Positions 741-58,651 of a DNA stretch of 64,000 bases are shown here, in pieces; position 1 is the stretch's first letter; every line of letters begins with the position of its first letter. The notes beneath the pieces are model-generated. The model was not told the DNA's origin, did not search any database, and worked only from the letters and a program-made list of their open reading frames with translations. The translations under genes and the position numbers were made by a program. The stretch is from an uncultured Muribaculaceae bacterium (GTDB taxonomy: Bacteria; Bacteroidota; Bacteroidia; Bacteroidales; Muribaculaceae), in contig CAJOFM010000001.1 in NCBI GenBank assembly GCA_905233915.1, positions 395,492-459,491 on the forward strand, given 5' to 3'.

Positions 741-754
741 GTTTAGAGTTTAGA
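741..754 (+). repeat. Heptamer dimer GTTTAGA x2
   Basis: Two exact copies of GTTTAGA directly follow the fbp hairpin. This is the shortest of the 7-bp periodic tracts in the window; unlike the others it is in a convergent intergenic region, not before a start codon. Confidence 0.4.
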
Positions 755-5088: not shown

Positions 5089-6291
5089 ATGAAGTACCGT
5101 TTTTATGCATTGATTGGTCTGCTGGCCTTGAGCGCCGGCGCGATTTTACAAGCACAGGACTACGATGACATCTATTACGATGCCTCGAAGTCGTCTGCCT
5201 CGACCAAGGCCAAGGTCGCTCAACCCGCCAAGACTGTTGCTGTCTATGGCGAAGTTCCCGAGAGGTACAAGGAGGCCGTCCAGGTCAACTACAGTACTAA
5301 TCGTGATGTTGACGAGTATAACCGCCGTGGGGCCTATGACCCCTCAAACATGCCCGCCTTTGAGGTGGACATCAATGGTGATACCATCTATTTTGACAAT
5401 GACTCCATCTATGATGACGAGGCATTTGCCAATACGCGTCGCATCGAACGTTTCTACAATCCTGACGTCGTGATCTTGAGTGATGATGACGATCTGGTGG
5501 AATTGTATTACAGTGAGACTCCCACCATCAACCTGATCGTGGGCAGCGACTGGGGATATGATTACTATGATTGGGGTTTCTATTCTTCCTATTACCCTTG
5601 GTACACTGGATGGTATGAGCCTTGGGGCTGGTATAGTCCTTGGCGCTGGCGTGCATCCTGGTATTACGGTTACCGTCCTTGGGGCTGGAGCTGGGGTTAT
5701 CATCCCTGGTACTATAGCTCATGGAGCTGGGGCTGGGGCCGCTCCTATTGGGATTGGGGTCATCGTCCCTATTGGGGCTGGAGTGATTGGAACTATGCTC
5801 CCAATCGTCATAACCACACCCGCTATGCGGACTATGGCGCTCGTCCTGGACTCGGACAACGTGCCGGATTGGCAACCAACCGTAACAACCGTGGCCGTGT
5901 GGATGCAATGGGCTCCAACCGCAACAACATTGGCGCACGCGGTGCCAGCAGCAACCGTGGCTCAAGCGTAGGCACTAGCACCCGCAGCCGTGGAGGCTAT
6001 GCAACCAGCCGTGGCGGTAACATGGGCTCACGCAGTAACAGTGGTGTTGTTTCCCGCAGCTCAGGCAGTGTATCACGCTCACCCTCGTCGAGCGGCAGCC
6101 GTAGCTACGGCGGCTCCTCCAGCAGCTCTCGCAGCAGTGGCAGTAGCTATAGCGGCTCACGCAGTAGCGGCTCGTACAGCAGCGGTAGCTCACGCAGCAG
6201 CGGCGGCTCCTACAGCAGCGGTGGCGGTAGCCGCGGCGGTGGCGGCGGTGGCGGCAGCACCGGAGGATCAAGTGGCAGTCGTCGTCACTAA
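5089..6291 (+). CDS. Secreted Trp/Tyr-rich and Gly/Ser/Arg-rich low-complexity protein
   Basis: 400 residues, function unknown. Residues 1-22 are a signal peptide (ending QAQ). Residues 23-150 are acidic and moderately ordered. Residues 155-234 hold 21 tryptophans within 80 residues, in W-G-W, P-W and W-S-W steps rich in Tyr. Residues about 255-400 are almost only Gly, Ser, Arg and Asn, ending in a run of glycines and SGSRRH. The aromatic block followed by a basic low-complexity tail suggests a surface, adhesive or matrix protein, but this is inference. It is 65 bases upstream of a FadL-like barrel gene and probably co-transcribed with it. Confidence 0.75.
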   Translation: MKYRFYALIGLLALSAGAILQAQDYDDIYYDASKSSASTKAKVAQPAKTVAVYGEVPERYKEAVQVNYSTNRDVDEYNRRGAYDPSNMPAFEVDINGDTIYFDNDSIYDDEAFANTRRIERFYNPDVVILSDDDDLVELYYSETPTINLIVGSDWGYDYYDWGFYSSYYPWYTGWYEPWGWYSPWRWRASWYYGYRPWGWSWGYHPWYYSSWSWGWGRSYWDWGHRPYWGWSDWNYAPNRHNHTRYADYGARPGLGQRAGLATNRNNRGRVDAMGSNRNNIGARGASSNRGSSVGTSTRSRGGYATSRGGNMGSRSNSGVVSRSSGSVSRSPSSSGSRSYGGSSSSSRSSGSSYSGSRSSGSYSSGSSRSSGGSYSSGGGSRGGGGGGGSTGGSSGSRRH

Positions 6292-21628: not shown

Positions 21629-21648
21629 TGAGTGGTTAGTGGATTAGG

Positions 21649-43886: not shown

Positions 43887-45539
43887 TTATTTGAACTTGA
43901 GGATTGTGGCGGCATGGGCATCGATGTGGATGGGGATGCACGTGTCCCCATTTAATCTGACAGTGCAGCTACCATCATTAAGACAATCGGTCATTTGATA
44001 CATGCCCTCGCTCATCTTGGCACAATCCAACGCATGTTGCGGGATACGCACAGTGGTGTCCACCGCCTGGCCGCTGAAGTTGGCCACAATCAGTGTCATC
44101 TCGCCATCGCAGTGGCGCAGATAGGCATACTGCTGACTGGGGTCGAGGGTGTCCTGATTGACATACATCAGGTCAAAGAACTGCCCATGGGCCAACGTCT
44201 TCTCGCTGTTGCACAGGCGCAGCACCTTGCGGTAGATGGCCCGCAAGCGGCGTTCATCGGCTGTGGGTTTGCCCTGGTGCCAGCGGCGCAAGGCGGGAAC
44301 ACTCCAGTAGTCGAAGATGGTCGTGCGGCCGTCCAAGCCGCTGTAGCCCTCGGCATCGGCTGCGGGTTCTCCCAACTCCTGTCCGGCATAGACCATAAAC
44401 GGGCATCGTGACATCGTAGCGCTTACCACCAGCGCCGGCAAGGCCTTGAACGGGTCGCCGCAGAATTGCCGTGAGGCAATGCGCTGCTCGTCGTGGTTCT
44501 CGAGGAAGTTGAGCATGTGGCCGCCGATGCCCTCGACCGTCTGCCAGCAACGGGTGAGGTCGCTGGCTGGCCAGCCGTTGCACAGAATACCACGCAGGGT
44601 GTCGTATAGGGTCACTTTGTCATACAGGTAGTCAAAGCCGCCGTCAAAGATATAACTATGGTATAGTGACACGTCATAGATCTCGGCGATGAAGATGATG
44701 CCGGGGTGGATTTCCTTGATTTGCCCGATGGCCCATTGCCAGAACTCTACCGGCACCATGTGGGCCATGTCGCAACGGAAACCGTCAACCCCCTTGCCAG
44801 CCCAGAACTTGAGAATGTCGAGCATCTTGATCCAAGTGGGTGGGATAGGGGAGAAATGGCGGCTGCCGTTCCAGGGGTCAATGCCGTAGTTGAGTTTCAC
44901 GGTCTCATACCAATCGTCACGGTTGGGCGATGCGGTGTAGCAGTCGTTGCCCGTGGCCCGTGCGGGAAACTCGCGGTAATCGCCCAAGTCAACACCATGG
45001 GGCGCAAATTCCTGGCCGGTAATATAGTAGAAGTTGTTACTCGGGTCGAAGAACATCATGGGATTGTCGCCCTCGCCCAAGTCCTCAACCCCGGCGGGCT
45101 TGGCGTCGCTCTCGTATTCGCGTGCCACGTGGTTGGGTACGAAATCGATGATGACCTTGAGACCCATGCGGTGAGTGCGCTGGACCAGCGCTTCAAACTC
45201 GGCCATGCGGTTTTTCACCTTCACAGCCAGGTCGGGGCACACGTCATAGTAGTCGCGGATGGCATAGGGGGATCCCGCCTTGCCCTTCACCACATGGGGA
45301 TTGCAGGGGGCAATGCCTTGCCGTGAATAGTTGGTTGCGGTGGCATGCTCGATGACACCGGTGTACCACACGTGGGTCGCTCCCAACGACTTGATGGAGC
45401 GCAGCTTGCTCTCGTCGATGTCATTGAACTTTCCCACACCGTTTTGCTTGATGCTGCCGTTGGGCACACAGCCCTCGTTGCAATTGGTGAACCACCTGGG
45501 CATCAACTGGTAGATAATCGCCTTTTTCTTCTCTTTCAT
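43887..45539 (-). CDS. Alpha-amylase family (GH13) glycosidase, cytosolic
   Basis: 550 residues without a signal peptide. GH13 regions: DFVPNH (region I), GFRCDMAH with nucleophile D257 (II), FIAEIYD with acid/base E286 (III) and FLENHDEQR with D350 (IV). The C-terminal 80 residues are a beta-sandwich domain. It probably acts on intracellular maltodextrins or glycogen; the exact reaction (hydrolysis or transfer) is not clear. The start lies 4 bases after a -7 element, in a well-formed promoter with TTG 20 bases upstream. Confidence 0.92.
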   Translation of the reverse strand: MKEKKKAIIYQLMPRWFTNCNEGCVPNGSIKQNGVGKFNDIDESKLRSIKSLGATHVWYTGVIEHATATNYSRQGIAPCNPHVVKGKAGSPYAIRDYYDVCPDLAVKVKNRMAEFEALVQRTHRMGLKVIIDFVPNHVAREYESDAKPAGVEDLGEGDNPMMFFDPSNNFYYITGQEFAPHGVDLGDYREFPARATGNDCYTASPNRDDWYETVKLNYGIDPWNGSRHFSPIPPTWIKMLDILKFWAGKGVDGFRCDMAHMVPVEFWQWAIGQIKEIHPGIIFIAEIYDVSLYHSYIFDGGFDYLYDKVTLYDTLRGILCNGWPASDLTRCWQTVEGIGGHMLNFLENHDEQRIASRQFCGDPFKALPALVVSATMSRCPFMVYAGQELGEPAADAEGYSGLDGRTTIFDYWSVPALRRWHQGKPTADERRLRAIYRKVLRLCNSEKTLAHGQFFDLMYVNQDTLDPSQQYAYLRHCDGEMTLIVANFSGQAVDTTVRIPQHALDCAKMSEGMYQMTDCLNDGSCTVRLNGDTCIPIHIDAHAATILKFK

Positions 45540-45543
45540 GCCA

Positions 45544-45574
45544 CAAAAATAGTGCTTTTTAATTACCTTTGCAA
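45544..45574 (-). promoter_or_regulatory. Promoter of the GH13-GH20 operon
   Basis: Minus strand TTG (45572-45574), 20-base spacer, TATTTTTG (45544-45551). The ATG is 4 bases further on, so the mRNA should be leaderless. Confidence 0.7.
45564..45571 (+). promoter_or_regulatory. -7 element TACCTTTG before the threonine aldolase gene
   Basis: Plus-strand TAnnTTTG match 64 bases before the start at 45636; it lies in the spacer of the divergent GH13 promoter. Confidence 0.6.
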
Positions 45575-45596
45575 AATAAAATCAACTTACAACCAA

Positions 45597-45631
45597 AACT
45601 AGTGACTAAGGACTAGAAACTAAAAACTAAA
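45597..45631 (+). repeat. Heptamer tract, 5 units, before the threonine aldolase start
   Basis: Five consecutive 7-bp units of consensus RACTARN (for example GACTAAG, AACTAAA). Every unit has C at position 3. The last unit ends 4 bases before the ATG. Confidence 0.75.
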
Positions 45632-45635
45632 CAAC

Positions 45636-46658
45636 ATGATTTCATTTGAAAGCGATTACAATAACGGCTGCCACCCCGCCATCCTTGACCGGTTGACCGA
45701 AACCAACGACGTGCGTGCCACCGGCTACGGCCTTGACGACTTCTGCAACGCGGCCCGAGACAAGGTGCGTGCGGCCTGTGAGATGCCCGATGCCGACGTC
45801 TTTTTCCTCGTTGGCGGCACCCAGACCAATGCCACGGTCATCGATGCCGTGCTGCGCGGCTACCAGGGGGTGCTGTCGGTAGAGACCGGCCACATCAATG
45901 TGCATGAGTCGGGAGCTATCGAGTTCGGCGGCCACAAGGTGCTGGCATTGCCCTCACATGACGGCAAGATGGATGCCGGCGAGTTGCGCGAGTGGCTCGA
46001 GACCTTCTGGGGCGACATCGCCTATGAGCACATGGTGTTCCCTGGCATGGTCTATATCACCTTTGCCACCGAGATGGGCACCATCTACACCCGTGCCGAA
46101 CTCGAGGCCATTTATGCTGTGTGCAAGCAATATGAATTGCCCCTCTTCATTGACGGGGCTCGCTTGGGCTACGGCCTGATGGCCGAGGGCTGTGACGTTA
46201 CCCTGTCGCAGCTGGCGCGATTGTGCGATGTGTTTTACCTGGGAGGCACCAAGTGCGGCGCATTGTGCGGCGAGGCTGTGGTATTCTCGGGCATGAAGGC
46301 ACCCGCCCATTTCTTCACCACCGTCAAGCAGCACGGGGCTCTCATGGCCAAGGGCCGCTTGCTGGGTATCCAGTTTGATGTGCTCATGCAGGATGGACTC
46401 TACTTCAAGATTGCCCGTCACGCCGTTGAGCAGGCCATGCGCCTGCGTGACGCCTTTATCGCCAAGGGCTACAAGATGTACTCCAATTCGCCCACCAACC
46501 AGCAGTTTGTGCTGTTTGACAAGGAGACGATCCAGCGCTTGGAGAAAGACTTCGTTTTTGAGCAGTGGTTCCCTGTTGGTGACAAGATGAATTGCCGCTT
46601 CGTCACCAGTTGGGCCACCCGCCCCGAGGACGTTGATGCCCTCATTGCCGCCCTGTAA
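45636..46658 (+). CDS. Low-specificity L-threonine aldolase (beta-eliminating lyase family)
   Basis: 340 residues, cytosolic, PLP-dependent. The N-terminus FESDYNNGCHPAIL, the glycine-rich VGGTQTNAT, FIDGARLGYG (D173 contacts PLP) and K206 in YLGGTKCGALCG (the Schiff-base lysine) place it in the threonine aldolase branch. It splits L-threonine or allo-threonine into glycine and acetaldehyde. Related lyases share the fold, so specificity is inferred. It has its own promoter and a heptamer tract immediately before the start. Confidence 0.9.
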   Translation: MISFESDYNNGCHPAILDRLTETNDVRATGYGLDDFCNAARDKVRAACEMPDADVFFLVGGTQTNATVIDAVLRGYQGVLSVETGHINVHESGAIEFGGHKVLALPSHDGKMDAGELREWLETFWGDIAYEHMVFPGMVYITFATEMGTIYTRAELEAIYAVCKQYELPLFIDGARLGYGLMAEGCDVTLSQLARLCDVFYLGGTKCGALCGEAVVFSGMKAPAHFFTTVKQHGALMAKGRLLGIQFDVLMQDGLYFKIARHAVEQAMRLRDAFIAKGYKMYSNSPTNQQFVLFDKETIQRLEKDFVFEQWFPVGDKMNCRFVTSWATRPEDVDALIAAL

Positions 46659-46708
46659 TTCACACAGATTAGTTATTCTAAAGCCTAAAAGACTATAAAA
46701 AAACAAAC

Positions 46709-48703
46709 ATGAAAAAATGTACAATTCTGATTGCGGTTTTAATTGCAATCAGCATTTCTATTACCACTCAAGCCGAAGTGATTAATGAGGAAAATGCACG
46801 TGGCATTGCGATGGATTTCCTTTCACAGCGACAAGACGGACGCCGAATGAACGCCAACCCCGTTGATCTGACTTTGACACAAACCCGTTTCTCGTCATCC
46901 AACCAGACGACACCGGTTTATTATGTGTTCGCCGATGCAACTCATGGCGGGTGGGTAATGGTAGCTGCCGACGACCGTGCCCATCAGGTGCTTGGGTATA
47001 GCGAGAATGGCCAGTTCAATAGCGATGACATGCCCTGCAATATGCGTTCGTGGATTGATGGTTACAGCGAGCAGATTGAGTTTCTGCAAAATCATCCTGG
47101 TATCAAGAGCGTAGCCCAAGCCCCTCGGCAGGAACAGTCTATGAGCGAAATCGCCCCGATGCTCACGACGGCATGGGGCCAGTCAAAACCGTTTAATAAC
47201 CAGTGCCCCAAGGTGGGCTATTATCCGACTTATACGGGCTGTGTGGCCACCGCAATGGCCCAGGTCATGTTCTATCACCGTTACCCGAGTGGTGAGTGCC
47301 GCGGCATTCCCGCCTATACTTCCAAGCACGGCATCAGTCTGCCGGCATTGCCTCCAGTGGCATTTGACTGGAACAACATGGCTGACGATTATAACTACAG
47401 CTATTCCACCGCTCAAGCCACTGCGGTGTCGCAACTGATGCGCTATTGCGGCCAGTCGGTCGAGATGGATTATGGGACAAGCAGCAGTGATGGCAGTGTA
47501 CCCGCCATACCGTTTGCCTTGAATTACTATTTCGGTTTCAGCCAAACGGCCATGGTCGTCATGAAAGATGCTTCCAACGAAGCCGACTGGGAGCAGATGA
47601 TGTATGATGAGTTGGCTTGCGGCTTGCCTGTTATCTATTCGGGCCATGATTCCAGTCACGGCAGCCATGCCTTTGTGCTGGATGGCTATCGTAACGGCAT
47701 GTTTCACATCAATTGGGGCTGGAGTGGGGACGAAAACACTTATTGGCAGTTGTCGGCCTTGACTCCCAAAGGGTATAACTACTCGACCCGCCATTATGCG
47801 ATATTGGGCGTGAGCCTTTCGGCTGCCGACGTGAATGCCGACGGCCAGGTTAATGTCGCTGATGTCACAGCATTAATCAGCATGGTGCTTAACAGCGTTC
47901 CAGCACATGGCCGCATCGGTGACTTGAACCATGACAATAGTATCAATGTTTCGGATGTCACCGCATTGATTAACATGATATTGACCAGTTCAGGAGGCAC
48001 CGAACCCGAGGGTGAGTCCTTCACTGTCAACGGTGAAACGTTCAGGATGGTCAAGGTCGAGGGTGGCACGTTTGAAATGGGTGCCACTGACGCGCAGGCT
48101 GGAGATGCGTTATCCAATGAATATCCCGCTCATCAGGTCACCTTGTCACCTTATTACATCGGGAAAACCGAAGTGACCCAAGGGCTTTGGAAGGCAGTCA
48201 TGGGGACCAATCCCAGTGCTGTGCATGGCGTTGAACTACCAGCAGGAGGCATCAGCTGGAATGACTGCATGGCATTCATCGAACGCTTGAATGCGTTGAC
48301 GGGGCGCTCGTTCCGCTTGCCCACCGAGGCCGAGTGGGAATTTGCCGCTCGTGGCGGAAACCGTAGCCGTGGTTATATCTATGCCGGTAGCGACGACATC
48401 GACGCAGTGGCCTGGTATTTTGACAACGCGCAGTATTCCTACGGGCGCCGTGTTGCCACCAAGCAGGCCAACGAATTGGGCCTTTATGACATGTGCGGCA
48501 ACAACTACGAGTGGTGCGCCGACTACTATGGCGAATACTCATCAGAAGCCCAAACCGACCCTCAGGGTCCTGCAAGCGGCACTGAAAGGGTAGTGCGCAG
48601 CGGCAGTTGGTACACTCCTGCCGATGAATGCCGCAGCACATCCCGTTCGGCAGCAGCCCCCAGCGATGCTTTTGTCCACCTCGGTTTCAGGTTAGCCCTG
48701 TAA
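46709..48703 (+). CDS. C10-family cysteine protease fused to dockerin-like repeats and an FGE-like domain
   Basis: 664 residues. Signal peptide 1-22. Residues about 23-145 are the Spi/SpeB-type prodomain. Residues 146-370 are the protease with C178 (TGCVATAMAQVM), H320 (GSHAFVLDGY) and W336 (INWGWSG), spaced as in streptopain. Residues 373-428 are two dockerin-like repeats (DVNADGQVNVADVTALI and GDLNHDNSINVSDVTALI). Residues 445-664 are a formylglycine-generating-enzyme-like domain (VEGGTFEMG, KTEVTQGLWKAVMG, RLPTEAEWEFAARGG, GNNYEWCADYY, GFRLAL). Only one of the two catalytic cysteines of true FGE (equivalent to C641) is present, so this domain probably binds rather than oxidises. I do not know of this three-part architecture. 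Confidence 0.85.
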   Translation: MKKCTILIAVLIAISISITTQAEVINEENARGIAMDFLSQRQDGRRMNANPVDLTLTQTRFSSSNQTTPVYYVFADATHGGWVMVAADDRAHQVLGYSENGQFNSDDMPCNMRSWIDGYSEQIEFLQNHPGIKSVAQAPRQEQSMSEIAPMLTTAWGQSKPFNNQCPKVGYYPTYTGCVATAMAQVMFYHRYPSGECRGIPAYTSKHGISLPALPPVAFDWNNMADDYNYSYSTAQATAVSQLMRYCGQSVEMDYGTSSSDGSVPAIPFALNYYFGFSQTAMVVMKDASNEADWEQMMYDELACGLPVIYSGHDSSHGSHAFVLDGYRNGMFHINWGWSGDENTYWQLSALTPKGYNYSTRHYAILGVSLSAADVNADGQVNVADVTALISMVLNSVPAHGRIGDLNHDNSINVSDVTALINMILTSSGGTEPEGESFTVNGETFRMVKVEGGTFEMGATDAQAGDALSNEYPAHQVTLSPYYIGKTEVTQGLWKAVMGTNPSAVHGVELPAGGISWNDCMAFIERLNALTGRSFRLPTEAEWEFAARGGNRSRGYIYAGSDDIDAVAWYFDNAQYSYGRRVATKQANELGLYDMCGNNYEWCADYYGEYSSEAQTDPQGPASGTERVVRSGSWYTPADECRSTSRSAAAPSDAFVHLGFRLAL

Positions 48704-48763
48704 TCTAGTAATTGTGGCCCCTGTTTCTTAAAAAACTGTTAATGGCAAACTTGATACGCGAGA

Positions 48764-48798
48764 TTTTGCGTTTCTACAAATACTTTTTTGTAACTTTG
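48764..48798 (+). promoter_or_regulatory. Promoter of the tsaB gene cluster
   Basis: TTTTG (48764-48768), 22-base spacer, TAACTTTG (48791-48798). The GTG start lies 21 bases after the element. Confidence 0.6.
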
Positions 48799-48819
48799 CA
48801 CGTTTTTTAGATAGAGGAA

Positions 48820-49533
48820 GTGGCAAATATCCTGAACATAGAGACTTCGACCGAGGTGTGCTCGGTGGCATTGACCAGCGAAGGGCAGGTGCTTGACCAT
48901 CGTGAGAATTACGAGGGCCAGACGCATGCCACGCTCTTGAGTCAGTATGTGAAAGAGATGCTGGATTATGCCAGGTCGCGAGAGTTGAAACTCGATGCGA
49001 TTGCCGTGAGCATCGGGCCTGGTTCTTACACAGGACTGCGCATCGGCCTGAGCGAGGCCAAGGGGTTGGCCTTCGGCCTGCAGGTGCCCCTGATTGGGGT
49101 GAACACGCTGCAGCTGCTCACCGTGAGCACAATGTTTAACCACTTTATTGAGGAAGACAACGTGCTGTATGTCCCCATGATTGATGCCCGCCGCATGGAG
49201 GTCTATACCGCGGTTTACAACCCCGCGCTTGACGACGTGCTAGAGCCACAGGCGATGATTCTCGACGAGCACTCGTTTGAGAATCTGCTCGAGCAAGGTT
49301 ATACCCTGGTGGCGATGGGCAATGGCAGCGATAAGGCGCGCGAGGTGCTCACGCATGAGCGCATGCGTTTCATTGGCGGCGTGAAGCCTGTTGCAGTGGA
49401 TATGATGGCCCTGGCCGAGAAAGCCTACCGTGAGCAGCAATTCATCGATGTGGCTTACAGTACGCCACTCTATCTCAAAGAGTTCCAAGCTACTAAGCCC
49501 AAGAACCCTTTATTACAGACATTAGAAAACTGA
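48820..49533 (+). CDS. tsaB: tRNA threonylcarbamoyladenosine biosynthesis protein TsaB
   Basis: 237 residues. The N-terminus ILNIETSTEVCSVAL is the ASKHA-fold phosphate-1 motif; the SIGPGSYTGLRIGLSEAKGLA block is the TsaB signature. It partners TsaD in making the universal t6A37 modification of ANN-decoding tRNAs. The start is a GTG at 48820: an in-frame stop lies 4 codons upstream and there is no ATG between. First gene of a same-strand run through proS. Confidence 0.93.
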   Translation: MANILNIETSTEVCSVALTSEGQVLDHRENYEGQTHATLLSQYVKEMLDYARSRELKLDAIAVSIGPGSYTGLRIGLSEAKGLAFGLQVPLIGVNTLQLLTVSTMFNHFIEEDNVLYVPMIDARRMEVYTAVYNPALDDVLEPQAMILDEHSFENLLEQGYTLVAMGNGSDKAREVLTHERMRFIGGVKPVAVDMMALAEKAYREQQFIDVAYSTPLYLKEFQATKPKNPLLQTLEN

Positions 49534-49546
49534 GAACTGAAAACAG
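49526..49546 (+). repeat. Heptamer tract, 3 units, at the tsaB/DUF4290 junction
   Basis: Units AAAACTG, AGAACTG, AAAACAG, all with C at position 5. The tract overlaps the tsaB stop and ends 6 bases before the next ATG. Confidence 0.65.
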
Positions 49547-49552
49547 AATAAT

Positions 49553-50149
49553 ATGTTAACTTATAACTCACTTCTCAAGAAACTGGTGCTGCCGGAGTAT
49601 GGCCGCAACATCCAGCAGATGGTGGATCACTGCCTCACTATTGAGGACAGGAACGAGCGCACACGCTGCGCCTTTACCATCGTGCAGAACATGGCCAACA
49701 TGTTCCCCCAGTTGCGCTCCGAGACCGACTACCAGCACAAGTTGTGGGACCACCTCATGATCATGAGCGGTTTCCAGCTCGATGTGGACTTCCCCTTTGA
49801 CGACATCATCAGGGAGGAGAATCTGGACACTAGACCCGAGCCGATACAGTATCAGCTGGAACCGATTAAATACCGTCACTACGGTAAGAACATAGAACAC
49901 ATGATAGCCCGTGCGGCCGAGTACCCCGAGGGTGAGGAACGTGATGCCCTGGTGATGCTGCTGGCTAACCACATGAAGAAACTCATCTTCCAAATCAACA
50001 ACGAGGATGTGGAGGATGCCAAGATTTTCAAGGACCTGGCCTACTACAGCCATGGTGTCATCAAGCTCGACCCTGCTACTCACCACCTGCATGAGTACCA
50101 GGTCGTGAAACCCGCCCAGCCCACAGGCAAGAAAAAGAAGAAAAGATAA
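49553..50149 (+). CDS. DUF4290-family protein
   Basis: 198 residues, cytosolic. The N-terminal LPEYGRNIQQMVDHCLTIEDR and the central KYRHYGKNIEHMIARAAEYPEG are duplicated family motifs (YGRNIQ/YGKNIE), with RDALVMLLANHMKK between. The C-terminus is a lysine-rich tail (TGKKKKKR), as in RNA- or ribosome-associated proteins. The family is restricted to Bacteroidetes and of unknown function; its placement among tRNA and ribosome maturation genes suggests a translation role. Confidence 0.9.
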   Translation: MLTYNSLLKKLVLPEYGRNIQQMVDHCLTIEDRNERTRCAFTIVQNMANMFPQLRSETDYQHKLWDHLMIMSGFQLDVDFPFDDIIREENLDTRPEPIQYQLEPIKYRHYGKNIEHMIARAAEYPEGEERDALVMLLANHMKKLIFQINNEDVEDAKIFKDLAYYSHGVIKLDPATHHLHEYQVVKPAQPTGKKKKKR

Positions 50150-50152
50150 CTT

Positions 50153-50194
50153 TTAGGCTTTAGGCATTAGACATTAGGCTTTAGGCATTAGGTA
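50153..50194 (+). repeat. Heptamer tract, 6 units, at the DUF4290/rimM junction
   Basis: Six consecutive units of consensus TTAGGCN (TTAGGCT, TTAGGCA, TTAGACA, then the first two again and TTAGGTA). An exact 18-base direct repeat at 50153 and 50174 is part of it. It starts 3 bases after the DUF4290 stop. A purine-rich AGGAGAAGG follows before the rimM start. Confidence 0.85.
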
Positions 50195-50219
50195 ATTAAA
50201 CAAAAGAAGGAGAAGGCAG

Positions 50220-50756
50220 ATGATTGTACGAGAGGAGCTCATAGCCATAGGGCGCTACAATAAGCCACACGGTGTCGCCGGCGAAATATCGGCAACCATC
50301 GATGTGGACATTGAGGTGCTGCAGGCGTTGTCGTGCCTGATCAGTGACGTGGATGGCATCTACGTCCCCTTCTTTGTCAATGCCTGCCGCCCCAAGACTG
50401 CCGAAACGGTGCTGCTCACGATCGACGGCATAGGCAATGAGCGTGAGGCCGCAAGACTTGTCAACCACGACATTTACGCCCTCAAGAGTGAGTTTAGCGA
50501 TGAGAGTGAGGACGCCGAAGCCGATGGTTACCCTCTCGACTATTTCATCGGATTCACATTAAGCGATGCCGACGGACAGGTCGTGGGCGAGATTGTGGAC
50601 GTTGACGAGCAGACCGAGAACGCGATTTTCATCATCGACCGAGACGGTGACGAACTCATGGTGCCCGCAACCGATGACTTGATTGTTGAGTTTGACATGG
50701 AAAAGAAACTGATGGTCATGGACCTGCCTCAAGGACTCCTCGACCTGAATGATTAA
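50220..50756 (+). CDS. rimM: Ribosome maturation factor RimM
   Basis: 178 residues. The N-terminal RimM barrel begins EELIAIGRYNKPHGVAGEI, the family motif (G-x-I-x-K-P-H-G-V-x-G-E). The C-terminal PRC-barrel half includes YPLDYFIGFTLSDADGQVVGEI and ENAIFIIDRDGDELMVPA. It assists 30S head assembly by binding S19. An unusually good Shine-Dalgarno-like AGGAG lies 11 bases upstream of the ATG, in contrast to most genes here. Confidence 0.95.
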   Translation: MIVREELIAIGRYNKPHGVAGEISATIDVDIEVLQALSCLISDVDGIYVPFFVNACRPKTAETVLLTIDGIGNEREAARLVNHDIYALKSEFSDESEDAEADGYPLDYFIGFTLSDADGQVVGEIVDVDEQTENAIFIIDRDGDELMVPATDDLIVEFDMEKKLMVMDLPQGLLDLND

Positions 50757-50768
50757 TGAATAATGAAC
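50748..50768 (+). repeat. Heptamer tract, 3 units, at the rimM/OmpA-like junction
   Basis: Units AATGATT, AATGAAT, AATGAAC run directly into the ATG at 50769. Each unit contains an ATG, so the tract places start codons in all three frames. It overlaps the rimM stop. Confidence 0.7.
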
Positions 50769-51410
50769 ATGCAACGAGGTTTATCACATATCTTAACGCT
50801 GTTGATGTTGACCATGGTCCTGGCGTGGCCGTTGTCGCTTGATGCAAAGGACGAGGATATCTATGAACTCTCGCTTGACGAGAACCTGGAAACGCCCGAA
50901 ATCAAGAGCGATAAGCAGGCAGACAGGATTCAGGATTTCCAGTATGACATGGCGGTGGCGTTCAAGAAGTCGAACTATGATGTGGAGCTCATGCGCGATA
51001 ACGAGGTGATTATCGTCACGATTCCCGCTAGCGAGTTGTTTGAGGCCAATGACACGGTGCTGACCGCCATCGGCCAGGAACGTCTCAAACCCTTCCTGCG
51101 CATGATCAAGAATCCGGGTTTCTACAAGATGCTGCTGGTCATGCACAGCGACAACACGGGCAGCGAGGCTTATACGCTCAACCTTACCCGCCAACGCGTG
51201 AATGCCGTCTTTGACTGGATTGACGAGAACGGCAGTGTGGACTATGTGGTGCCTTATGCTTTGGGCGAGACCGACCCCATCGCCGATAACAACTCGGTCG
51301 AGAACCGCAAGCGCAACCGTCGCCTGGAGATTTATCTGGTGCCCGAGAAGACGATGCTGCAGCAGGCTAAAAAAGGCGCCCCCAATATCACCCACATCGC
51401 TAAAAACTAA
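50763..51410 (+). CDS. OmpA-family outer-membrane/peptidoglycan-binding protein
   Basis: 215 residues (213 if the ATG at 50769 is used, which the heptamer tract favours). Signal peptide to about residue 28. Residues about 65-195 are an OmpA-like domain: FEANDTVLTAIGQERLKPFL, MHSDNTGSEAYTLNLTRQRVNAV and NRKRNRRLEIYL, shown here as its hallmark N-x2-L-x2-x-R and NR..NRR-E segments, which bind meso-DAP in peptidoglycan. There is no barrel, so it is a periplasmic or lipid-free envelope linker. Confidence 0.85.
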   Translation: MNMQRGLSHILTLLMLTMVLAWPLSLDAKDEDIYELSLDENLETPEIKSDKQADRIQDFQYDMAVAFKKSNYDVELMRDNEVIIVTIPASELFEANDTVLTAIGQERLKPFLRMIKNPGFYKMLLVMHSDNTGSEAYTLNLTRQRVNAVFDWIDENGSVDYVVPYALGETDPIADNNSVENRKRNRRLEIYLVPEKTMLQQAKKGAPNITHIAKN

Positions 51411-51437
51411 AGACAAACAACTAACGACAATAATAAA
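51403..51437 (+). repeat. Heptamer tract, 5 units, at the OmpA-like/proS junction
   Basis: Units such as AAAACTA, AAGACAA, ACAACTA, ACGACAA: C recurs at 51407, 51414, 51421 and 51428. The last unit (TAATAAA) ends immediately before the proS ATG, and the first overlaps the upstream stop. Confidence 0.6.
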
Positions 51438-52919
51438 ATGGCAAAAGAATTAAAGGATTTAACGAAGAGAGCCGATAATTACTCTCAATGGTATAATGAA
51501 CTGGTAGTGAAAGCCGACCTCGCCGAGCAGTCGGCAGTGCGTGGCTGTATGGTCATCAAGCCCTATGGCTATGCCATCTGGGAAAAGATGCAGCGCCAGC
51601 TGGATGACATGTTCAAGGCAACGGGTGTTCAAAACGCCTATTTCCCCCTGCTCATCCCCAAGTCGTTCCTCAGCCGTGAGGCCGACCACGTGGAGGGCTT
51701 TGCCAAGGAATGTGCCGTGGTAACCCACTATCGTCTGATGAATGATCCCAACGGCAAGGGTGTCGTTGTTGACCCCTCGGCCCGCCTGGAGGAGGAGCTG
51801 GTCATCCGTCCCACCAGCGAGACCATCATCTGGAACACCTACCGCAACTGGATCAACAGCTACCGCGACCTGCCCCTGCTGATTAACCAGTGGGCTAACG
51901 TGTTCCGTTGGGAGATGCGCACCCGCATGTTCTTGCGTACGGCCGAGTTCCTGTGGCAAGAGGGTCACACTGCTCATGCCACCAAGGAGGAAGCCGAGGC
52001 CAAGGCCGTTGAGATGCTGAACGTTTATGCCGACTTCGCTGAGAAATATATGGCGCTGCCCGTTGTCAAGGGTATCAAGACTGCCAACGAGCGCTTTGCC
52101 GGCGCTCTCGAGACCTATACCATCGAGGCGATGATGCAGGACGGTAAGGCCCTGCAGTCGGGTACCAGCCACTTCCTGGGCCAGAACTTTGCCAAGGCAT
52201 TTGACGTGAAGTTCATTGACAAGGAGAACAAGCTGCAGGACGTGTGGGCTACCTCGTGGGGTGTATCTACCCGCTTGATGGGGGCCCTGATCATGACCCA
52301 CAGCGACGACAACGGACTGGTGCTGCCTCCTCACTTGGCTCCCATCCAGGTTGTCATCGTTCCCGTTTACAAGACCAACGAACAGCTTGACGAGATCAAT
52401 AAGGTTGTCGATCCCATCGTCAACAACCTGCGCGGTATGGGCATCTCGGTGAAGTATGACAACGCCGATAACAAGCGTCCTGGCTTCAAGTTTGCCGATT
52501 ATGAGCTTAAGGGTGTGCCCGTGCGTCTCGTGCTGGGTGCCCGCGACATCGAGGCCGGCACCGTTGAGGTCATGCGCCGCGACACGCTCGAGAAATCCAG
52601 CGAGCAACTGGCCGGTATTGAGAACCGCGTTAAGGAACTGCTCGAGGAAATCCAGCAGAACATCTTTGACAAGGCCCTGCGTCACCGTGAGGAGATGACC
52701 TTCAAGGTAGATACTTGGGACGAGTTCAAGGAGCAGATCGAAAAGGGCGGTTTCATCCTGGCTCACTGGGATGGCACCACCGAGACCGAGGAGAAGATCA
52801 AGGAAGAGACCAAGGCCACCATCCGCTGCATCCCTCTGGATGCTGTTGAGGAGGAAGGCAAGTGCATCTACACCGGCAAGCCCAGCAAGCGCCGCGTGAT
52901 CTTCGCTCGAAACTATTAA
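51438..52919 (+). CDS. proS: Proline-tRNA ligase (class II, short archaeal/eukaryote-like type)
   Basis: 493 residues. Class II motifs: [17 protein letters not shown] (motif 1 region), [12 protein letters not shown] and [29 protein letters not shown] (motif 2), [14 protein letters not shown] and [17 protein letters not shown] (motif 3). The editing insertion of the long bacterial form is absent, and a zinc-like C-terminal extension ends in RRVIFARNY, so it is the ProS type 3 common in Bacteroidetes. It charges tRNA-Pro. A strong terminator ends the cluster. Confidence 0.97.
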
Positions 52920-52976
52920 AGGAATTTTCGTAGTAGAACCTTGAAAGAAGTAAAGGTTTTCTTTTTTATAGACTTG

Positions 52977-53013
52977 GGTTACGGGAGTCGTGAGATTCCC
53001 GTAATCTTTTTTT
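52977..53013 (+). terminator. Intrinsic terminator after proS
   Basis: 10-bp stem (52977-52986 with 52997-53006, one G-U pair) and 10-base loop followed by seven T (53007-53013). Confidence 0.9.
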
Positions 53014-58612: not shown

Positions 58613-58651
58613 CACTTTCAGGGTTGCCCATACGCCGAAAACTGAAAATCT

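Follow-up and report, generated by a model that had tools for sequence, protein, structure and literature searches.

Intergenic heptamer arrays with a nearly fixed tetranucleotide core and a variable spacer in a Muribaculaceae genome

We analysed short tandem heptamers in a 64,000-nucleotide stretch of DNA, called the window below, from an uncultured Muribaculaceae bacterium (GenBank assembly GCA_905233915.1, contig CAJOFM010000001.1, positions 395,492 to 459,491 of the forward strand). The window sits in a 2.8-Mb draft genome, which we label G000 and call the own genome. A sequence-only reading of the window had reported heptamers with a period of exactly 7 bp at all four junctions of a five-gene run, tsaB-DUF4290-rimM-ompA-proS. 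Heptamers between genes have been noted in several groups of bacteria, where no function has been established for them. We find that the heptad arrays are a real, ordered and genome-wide feature, and that the typical unit consists of a nearly fixed 4-nt core, CTAA or CTGA (together CTRA), and a variable 3-nt spacer.

We sorted noncoding tandem tracts scoring at least 10 by their period in two samples of the own genome: (i) 460 kb, made up of the window and 20 further stretches, and (ii) another 400 kb in 20 stretches. Order-3 Markov sequences (10 runs) served as the chance control. The first sample held 43 noncoding tracts of period 7, 41 of period 14, 13 of period 9 and 0-2 of every other period, against 0.0-0.3 tracts per period in the controls; its coding sequence held one tract of period 7. 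Period 14 is a multiple of 7, and its arrays are largely identical to those of period 7. With that exception, period 7 stands alone among noncoding tracts, and the exact 7-bp period of the sequence-only reading is supported: the controls do not match the signal, and no other period is equally common (at most 13 tracts against 43). The tract number depends on the counting rule, with 43 tracts strictly inside gaps, 48 when up to 25 nt of gene overlap is allowed and 53 at score 9. The second sample held 50 noncoding and 3 coding tracts of period 7, and 7 noncoding tracts of period 9. Period-9 tracts are not specific to gaps (13 and 7 noncoding versus 9 and 12 coding in the two samples).

Sampling of the own genome was not random. 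Nine of the 20 further stretches in the first sample and 6 of the 20 in the second hold copies of one window array, at 50153-50194 (Table 1), and some were chosen for them, so that tract densities may be too high. Because 15 of the 40 stretches contain such copies, we recounted the 25 stretches without known copies (500 kb, window excluded) and obtained 43 noncoding and 2 coding tracts of period 7 and 13 noncoding tracts of period 9, or about 86 period-7 tracts per Mb. Nine genomes of the same genus (724 kb) gave 47 noncoding tracts of period 7 and 1 coding; part of these loci overlaps the junction loci described below, and the sample is not fully independent.

Most units belong to a few families. 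CTAA or CTGA, on either strand, is present in the consensus unit of 46 of the 53 noncoding tracts scoring at least 9 in the first sample, compared with 10.6% of heptamers drawn at random from intergenic sequence, and NNNCTRA is matched by 187 of the 226 units in these tracts. The commonest units are AAACTGA, AGCCTAA, CTCCTAA, ACTCTAA and AACCTAA. The claim that the unit sequence differs at each site stands insofar as there are several unit types, but families share units: an identical circular unit is found between two tracts in 11% of cases, against 0.15% for random intergenic heptamers, and the tract at 50153 matches at least 35 further genomic places (40 of 107 candidates were scored).

Mismatches between neighbouring units fall mainly in the spacer. 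In the first sample (41 of 48 tracts, the remaining 7 having no CTRA consensus) they numbered 6/191, 6/191, 7/187 and 7/184 at C, T, R and A, and 59/177, 34/177 and 25/189 at the three spacer positions, that is, 3-4% in the core versus 13-33% in the spacer; none of 2000 random rotations was as extreme. This split was first seen in the first sample and then held in later stretches. The second sample (37 of 50 tracts) gave 2/148, 2/150, 8/143 and 4/141 in the core versus 49/128, 43/132 and 13/141 in the spacer (1-6% versus 9-38%), and the nine congeners (33 of 47 tracts) 6/184, 2/187, 10/183 and 14/180 versus 49/175, 41/174 and 26/176 (1-8% versus 15-28%), with 0 of 1000 rotations as extreme in each. 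The 25-stretch recount (31 of 43 tracts) gave 6/108, 4/109, 7/102 and 6/101 versus 24/98, 15/103 and 10/103 (4-7% versus 10-24%). Among runs with strongly different spacers there was a modest excess of CTAA (25 runs, versus 20 each for ACTA and CCTA).

The arrays are anchored to gene ends more than to gene starts. Genes were taken from a custom codon-usage caller of open reading frames, whose starts are approximate and whose stops are firmer (the ompA start, for instance, was called at 50805). Among 80 tracts in co-directional gaps, 51 overlap the upstream stop or sit within 10 nt of it; 21 have their end at most 6 nt from the first in-frame ATG (17 by called starts), 10 being anchored to both stop and start and 11 to the start only. 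Placement at start codons, put forward in the sequence-only reading, therefore fails as a rule; that reading misread the anchoring of the arrays and supposed an independence of their units. Tracts are held by 70 of 483 co-directional, 9 of 72 convergent and 4 of 67 divergent gaps, corresponding to 1.10, 0.49 and 0.17 per kb. The arrays also have a polarity. Of the asymmetric arrays in the three samples, 29/32, 25/31 and 29/36 have their CTRA strand directed into the gene that lies nearest, and in gaps with two or more arrays these diverge in 4/4, 4/4 and 6/9 cases. Single-array co-directional gaps of the own genome show CTAA-type arrays as TTAG in the sense strand in 31 of 36 cases and CTGA-type arrays as CTGA in 13 of 15.

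Two-arm gaps often have GGCATCCGC or its complement in their middle, which is GC-rich. The own-genome sample contains 15 noncoding copies of GGCATCCGC in 112 kb versus 21 coding copies in 748 kb, and heptads adjoin 9 of the 20 noncoding GCATCCGC contexts listed, as judged by eye. We note that the short GC-rich GGCATCCGC recurs between heptad arms and, in noncoding GCATCCGC contexts, also beside other repeats.

In the genome collection, the closest named relatives of this bacterium are metagenome assemblies submitted under the names uncultured Prevotellaceae, Bacteroidales or Muribaculaceae, and several are labelled as ruminant-derived. The genus genomes are drafts, 57-100% complete, and genomes other than the own one were sampled in part rather than end to end. 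The pattern (CTRANNN)3CTRA has 325 overlapping matches in the own genome, against 2 for the reversed pattern. It is present in 85 of 101 genus genomes, 100 of 198 genomes of an order sample and 166 of 296 genomes of a phylum sample; in many genomes of the latter two the reversed pattern is equally frequent, so other cores are likely there. Fourteen stretches from 14 genomes of the phylum sample contain three noncoding period-7 tracts in all. The core can also change within the genus: the congener G069 has 2 CTRA matches, yet 120 kb of its sequence contain 10 tracts of period 7, and AGAT is the core in 8 of these. Mismatches in these AGAT arrays were 1/50, 1/49 and 0/49 at the G, second A and T, the core positions listed, and 14/45, 4/43 and 15/47 in the spacer. 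An identical unit is shared by 800 of 2867 array pairs from the same genome versus 521 of 3445 pairs across genomes, and without G000 by 23 of 100 versus 66 of 595, a modest effect.

Arrays are patchy at orthologous sites. Counting loci where both genes are present and the gap is shorter than 200 bases, relatives have a period-7 tract (score at least 10) at 5/56, 4/65, 1/39 and 3/70 loci of the four junctions, and among the loci listed the units differ where such tracts occur. In two sister species, G015 and G047 (not strains of one species), 9 of 74 collinear gaps hold a tract in at least one of them. One array-bearing gap differs by 70 bp, a copy-number change in 7-bp steps, and in two gaps an array faces another unit or orientation in the sister.

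Other arrangements were seen at the same junctions and in other genomes. The DUF4290 stop overlaps the rimM start by four bases at two loci from two sister species (L073 and L079), which leaves no gap for an array. Gaps around DUF4290 at L067 and L069 hold composite repeats, in which a GCTCGC-rich motif is directly followed by GTTTAGA-type arrays, a GGCATCCGC-like middle and CTGA arrays. Period-9 arrays of the CTATTAATG and CTATTGCTC types occur in congeners or near relatives (G069, L219 11453-11543 and L220 16526-16548; the ompA-proS gap of L100 and L101). In 64 kb of G466, a genome of a different family, the intergenic arrays have a period of 10 instead of 7, including a 176-bp array of the CCACTACCAG type (L229 16598-16773) with other period-10 tracts nearby.

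We hypothesize that a trans-acting factor specific for the core acts on 7-bp copy-number turnover, a tentative explanation to which we would give slightly less than an even chance. Units would be gained and lost in 7-bp steps through slippage or misaligned copying, and the factor, perhaps a protein that binds DNA or else an enzyme initiating or nicking at the core, would choose the units that are propagated or kept. Its specificity could shift between species. Either strand of an array may run in the sense direction, yet the arrays prefer one polarity relative to the border of the gene; we therefore favour a factor that recognises DNA over a single-stranded RNA motif. DnaG primase initiates at CTR trinucleotides and is one candidate reader of the core. 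A wider proposal, more speculative and in our view unlikely, is that heptad arrays are one widespread kind of gene-border DNA. A species-specific trans-acting factor would then read the 4-nt core in a strict 7-bp register, would drive or maintain the arrays and would set their polarity. The core would be a dialect, CTRA in most of the genus and AGAT in one congener, open to replacement across a whole genome, much as the sequence of telomere repeats tracks the template or the proteins that bind them. Taken together, the fixed core, free spacer, polarity and between-species difference in core pose a testable question, namely what reads the core. As a possible binder we considered the RRM protein RbpB of Bacteroides and set it aside; the portion of PMC11697453 available to us names a 41-nt motif in its small RNA ligands and makes no mention of heptamers.

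Several observations weigh against this hypothetical core-specific factor. The arrays are dispensable: 16 of the 101 genus genomes have no match to the pattern, among them the 98%-complete, single-contig G004, and no period-7 tract was found in 80 kb of G004 or 40 kb of G056. Tracts without a CTRA consensus make up 7/53 and 13/50 in the two own-genome samples, 14/47 in the nine congeners and 12/43 in the 25-stretch recount, and include GGTTAA, AGATAA and AATTATG types. A de novo search for the best-conserved tetramer, for which only 10 own-genome arrays were usable, returned CTAA for 3, AACT for 3 and four others. Alignments of G015 with G047 contain 27/186 differences in the core versus 16/95 in the spacer, with a background of 323/3155; without gaps 80 and 107, where arrays were replaced, the counts are 9/148 versus 10/71. 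On these figures conservation of the core does not clearly exceed that of the spacer. This lack of clear core protection would fit neutral replication slippage, in which polymerase geometry favours 7-bp slips and any heptamer in a tolerant short gap multiplies, its sequence being accidental. The 70-bp difference between the sister species, the patchiness of arrays at the same junction and the heptamer excess ascribed to polymerase contact length (Mrazek 2007, as described in PMC4679880) point the same way. However, mutation after slippage should strike all seven positions equally, so the asymmetry between a nearly fixed core and a variable spacer, present in every sample tested, contradicts plain neutral slippage. 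The few unit families common to many tracts, the polarity to gene borders and the different fixed core, AGAT, of G069 also speak against it. The sequence-only reading had offered slippage as one origin of the tracts; copy-number change in 7-bp steps is in keeping with this, but the plain form leaves the constant tetramer, the polarity and the congener's core unexplained, and we consider it unlikely.

An RNA element in intercistronic mRNA or the 3' untranslated region, offering UUAG/CUGA sites to an RNA-binding protein or forming hairpin arms around a GGCATCCGC tip, would account for arrays between co-directional genes and after stops, their rarity in divergent gaps, the diverging arms of two-array gaps and the sense-strand bias of both core types. 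The arms do not behave as hairpin partners, though: spacers are no more alike within a gap than between gaps (14 gaps, 0.356 versus 0.343, P=0.40), and the same core type occurs in 9 of 14 two-arm gaps (P=0.68, permutation test). Folding of five window tracts gave two that beat shuffles (z about -2.5) and three that did not, and an Rfam search of window positions 45000-53000 found no match at E<=1. We think an RNA element quite improbable. An all-frame translation stop behind the gene follows from arithmetic, since 7 leaves a remainder of 1 on division by 3 and three units, each with a stop trinucleotide, are enough to close all frames. A stop trinucleotide is present in the sense-strand unit of 133 of 148 co-directional tracts (some loci entered twice) versus 41% of random intergenic heptamers. 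TAG terminates 25 of 56 genes beside TYAG-sense arrays, whereas across the sampled genomes it terminates 143 of 1113, and the all-frame property has been noted for another heptamer, TAACTGA (PMC4679880). Yet bases irrelevant to a stop are equally fixed, with 2/236 mismatches at the fourth core base of TTAG-sense arrays and, in CTGA-sense arrays, 5/143 at the C and 3/136 at the A before it, and the AGAT core of G069 contains no stop by itself. As the force behind the arrays, frame closure is very unlikely; all-frame stops probably arise as a side effect that lets arrays be tolerated at gene ends. Of 69 cases, the gene's stop is in register with the array in 25 and displaced by one base in 13. 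Seeding of an array by the stop codon is disfavoured as well: TAG prevails at TYAG arrays even though TAA is the stop used most often, and for this reason we believe that the arrays bring the stop codon. The other proposal of the sequence-only reading, a translation leader at start codons in an organism without Shine-Dalgarno pairing, was right about the weak Shine-Dalgarno signal (GGAG, GAGG or AGGA at -20..-4 in 49/635 genes versus 67/635 at -60..-44) and could draw on the 21 of 80 tracts that end close to an in-frame ATG. It is highly improbable nevertheless, because arrays are anchored more to stops than to starts and occur in convergent gaps too; at the orthologous sites of the four junctions, moreover, few relatives have a tract. 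REP elements, which go with RAYT transposases, are dispersed, intergenic and short, with inverted arms. Spread of the arrays as a REP-like mobile element by a Y1/RAYT transposase would suit their dispersed copies, the modular two-arm layout with its GC-rich middle and the two Y1 transposases of the own genome. But the arrays do not follow Y1 transposases in the genus, which occur in genomes without array matches (one in G004, twelve in G042) and were not found in array-bearing G013, G064 (99% complete) and G089. The arms of two-arm gaps are tandem heptads of independent type, and no target duplication was seen by eye in the eight G015/G047 gap alignments inspected. We give this idea hardly any credence.

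The tracts and genes of the window are listed in Table 1. Single tracts were judged by their lag-7 matches against the best segment of the shuffled neighbourhood (2000 shuffles). Three of the four junction tracts are clear by this measure; the fourth, between ompA and proS, does not reach significance. The tract claimed before the threonine aldolase gene is borne out, as is one of three claimed dimers, at 741-754, the other two being borderline. The array at 50153-50194 is separated from the DUF4290 stop by three bases and reads TTAGGCT TTAGGCA TTAGACA TTAGGCT TTAGGCA TTAGGTA. The array at 50748-50768 overlaps the rimM stop and runs up to the ompA ATG, and that at 45597-45631 lies in a divergent gap, four bases ahead of the ATG at 45636. 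Gene names given to the five-gene run agree with the Pfam matches, the tsaB-like gene matching the TsaD family. Elsewhere in the window, overlapping 6-, 9-, 12-, 15- and 18-bp tandem repeats occupy 6151-6255, near the end of the open reading frame 5089-6291.

Table 1. Heptamer tracts and neighbouring genes in the window (TRF, Tandem Repeats Finder)
Feature	Positions	Strand	Details
6-unit CTAA-family array	50153..50194	+	TTAG in sense, DUF4290-rimM gap; lag-7 29/35, 0/2000 shuffles; TRF period 7, score 59
3-unit CTGA-family array	49526..49546	+	AAAACTG AGAACTG AAAACAG; overlaps tsaB stop; lag-7 11/14, P=0.0055; TRF score 34
3-unit array, non-CTRA	50748..50768	+	AATGATT AATGAAT AATGAAC; lag-7 12/14, 0/2000 shuffles; TRF score 33
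Degenerate 7-bp tract	51403..51437	+	ompA-proS gap; CTAA in alternate units only; lag-7 16/28, P=0.0745; absent from TRF list
5-unit array	45597..45631	+	AACTAGT GACTAAG GACTAGA AACTAAA AACTAAA; lag-7 21/28, 0/2000 shuffles; TRF reports 45612-45631
2-unit CTAA-family array	741..754	-	GTTTAGA GTTTAGA on +; convergent gap; lag-7 7/7, P=0.0015; TRF 740-755
Candidate dimer	21631..21644		AGTGGTT AGTGGAT; strand unassigned; lag-7 6/7, P=0.05, near chance
Candidate dimer	58635..58648		CCGAAAA CTGAAAA; strand unassigned; lag-7 6/7, P=0.05, near chance
tsaB-like gene	48820..49533	+	Pfam PF00814 (TsaD family), E 1.4e-24; name tsaB from the sequence-only reading
DUF4290 gene	49553..50149	+	Pfam PF14123, E 2.3e-71
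rimM	50220..50756	+	Pfam PF24986, E 2.4e-17; PF01782, E 1.1e-5
OmpA-family gene	50769..51410	+	Pfam PF00691, E 8.3e-8
proS	51438..52919	+	Pfam PF09180, PF00587, PF03129
Beta-eliminating lyase family gene	45636..46658	+	Pfam PF01212, E 3e-24; threonine aldolase in the sequence-only reading

Among the open-licence papers that searches on heptamer and tandem repeats in Bacteroidetes or in bacterial genomes listed, none describes core-plus-spacer arrays in its title or in the opening of its abstract. Related systems are on record, the closest found being the TAACTGA repeats and the heptamers of Xanthomonas and Nostoc, and we compare them here with the portions of the cited papers available to us. 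TAACTGA direct repeats occur in marine Beggiatoaceae, some Cyanobacteria and five Bacteroidetes (MacGregor 2015, PMC4679880). Like our arrays, they are intergenic tandem heptamers that face the following start codon and in some cases overlap the stop before it, with stops in all frames, patchy occurrence among relatives and no functional theme in the neighbouring genes (PMC4679880). TAACTGA itself fits NNACTGA, and exact dimers of it are present in 32 of the 101 genus genomes and absent from G000; our data suggest that a survey for one exact heptamer, such as the one made for TAACTGA, undercounts, because many units in the genus share the core. The TAACTGA system has one dominant heptamer whose single-base variants are rarely repeated (PMC4679880), whereas here many core-sharing units with variable spacers occur, CTAA being the commonest core. 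TAACTGA repeats lie mostly forward and just upstream of starts (PMC4679880); our arrays are mainly at stops, although their polarity agrees.

The likeness to cyanobacterial heptamers drawn in the sequence-only reading is apt. The intergenic heptamers GGGAATC and GGGGA(C/T)T of Xanthomonas and Nostoc, which form quadruplexes in vitro (Rehm 2015, PMC4692102), share the polarity seen here: the G-rich strand is coding after stops, including overlaps, and non-coding before starts. They are likewise under-represented between divergent genes and variable in length between close species (PMC4692102). Their units contain G-tracts, whereas our commonest units have at most two consecutive G, which makes quadruplexes unlikely as a shared cause, and we rejected them as such; a minority unit, ACCCTAA (5/226), has GGG on the complement. 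Among long simple repeats, heptamers are reported to be the most abundant class in the majority of genomes, for which the contact length of the polymerase was proposed as the reason (Mrazek 2007, cited in PMC4679880). That survey shares with our data a favoured heptamer length in many genomes, and the descriptions of it in the available portions of PMC4679880 and PMC4692102 mention neither a fixed core with a variable spacer nor polarity. The heptad arrays are thus of a kind already known from TAACTGA and from Xanthomonas and Nostoc, and the new points are the fixed core, the variable spacer and the change of core between congeners.

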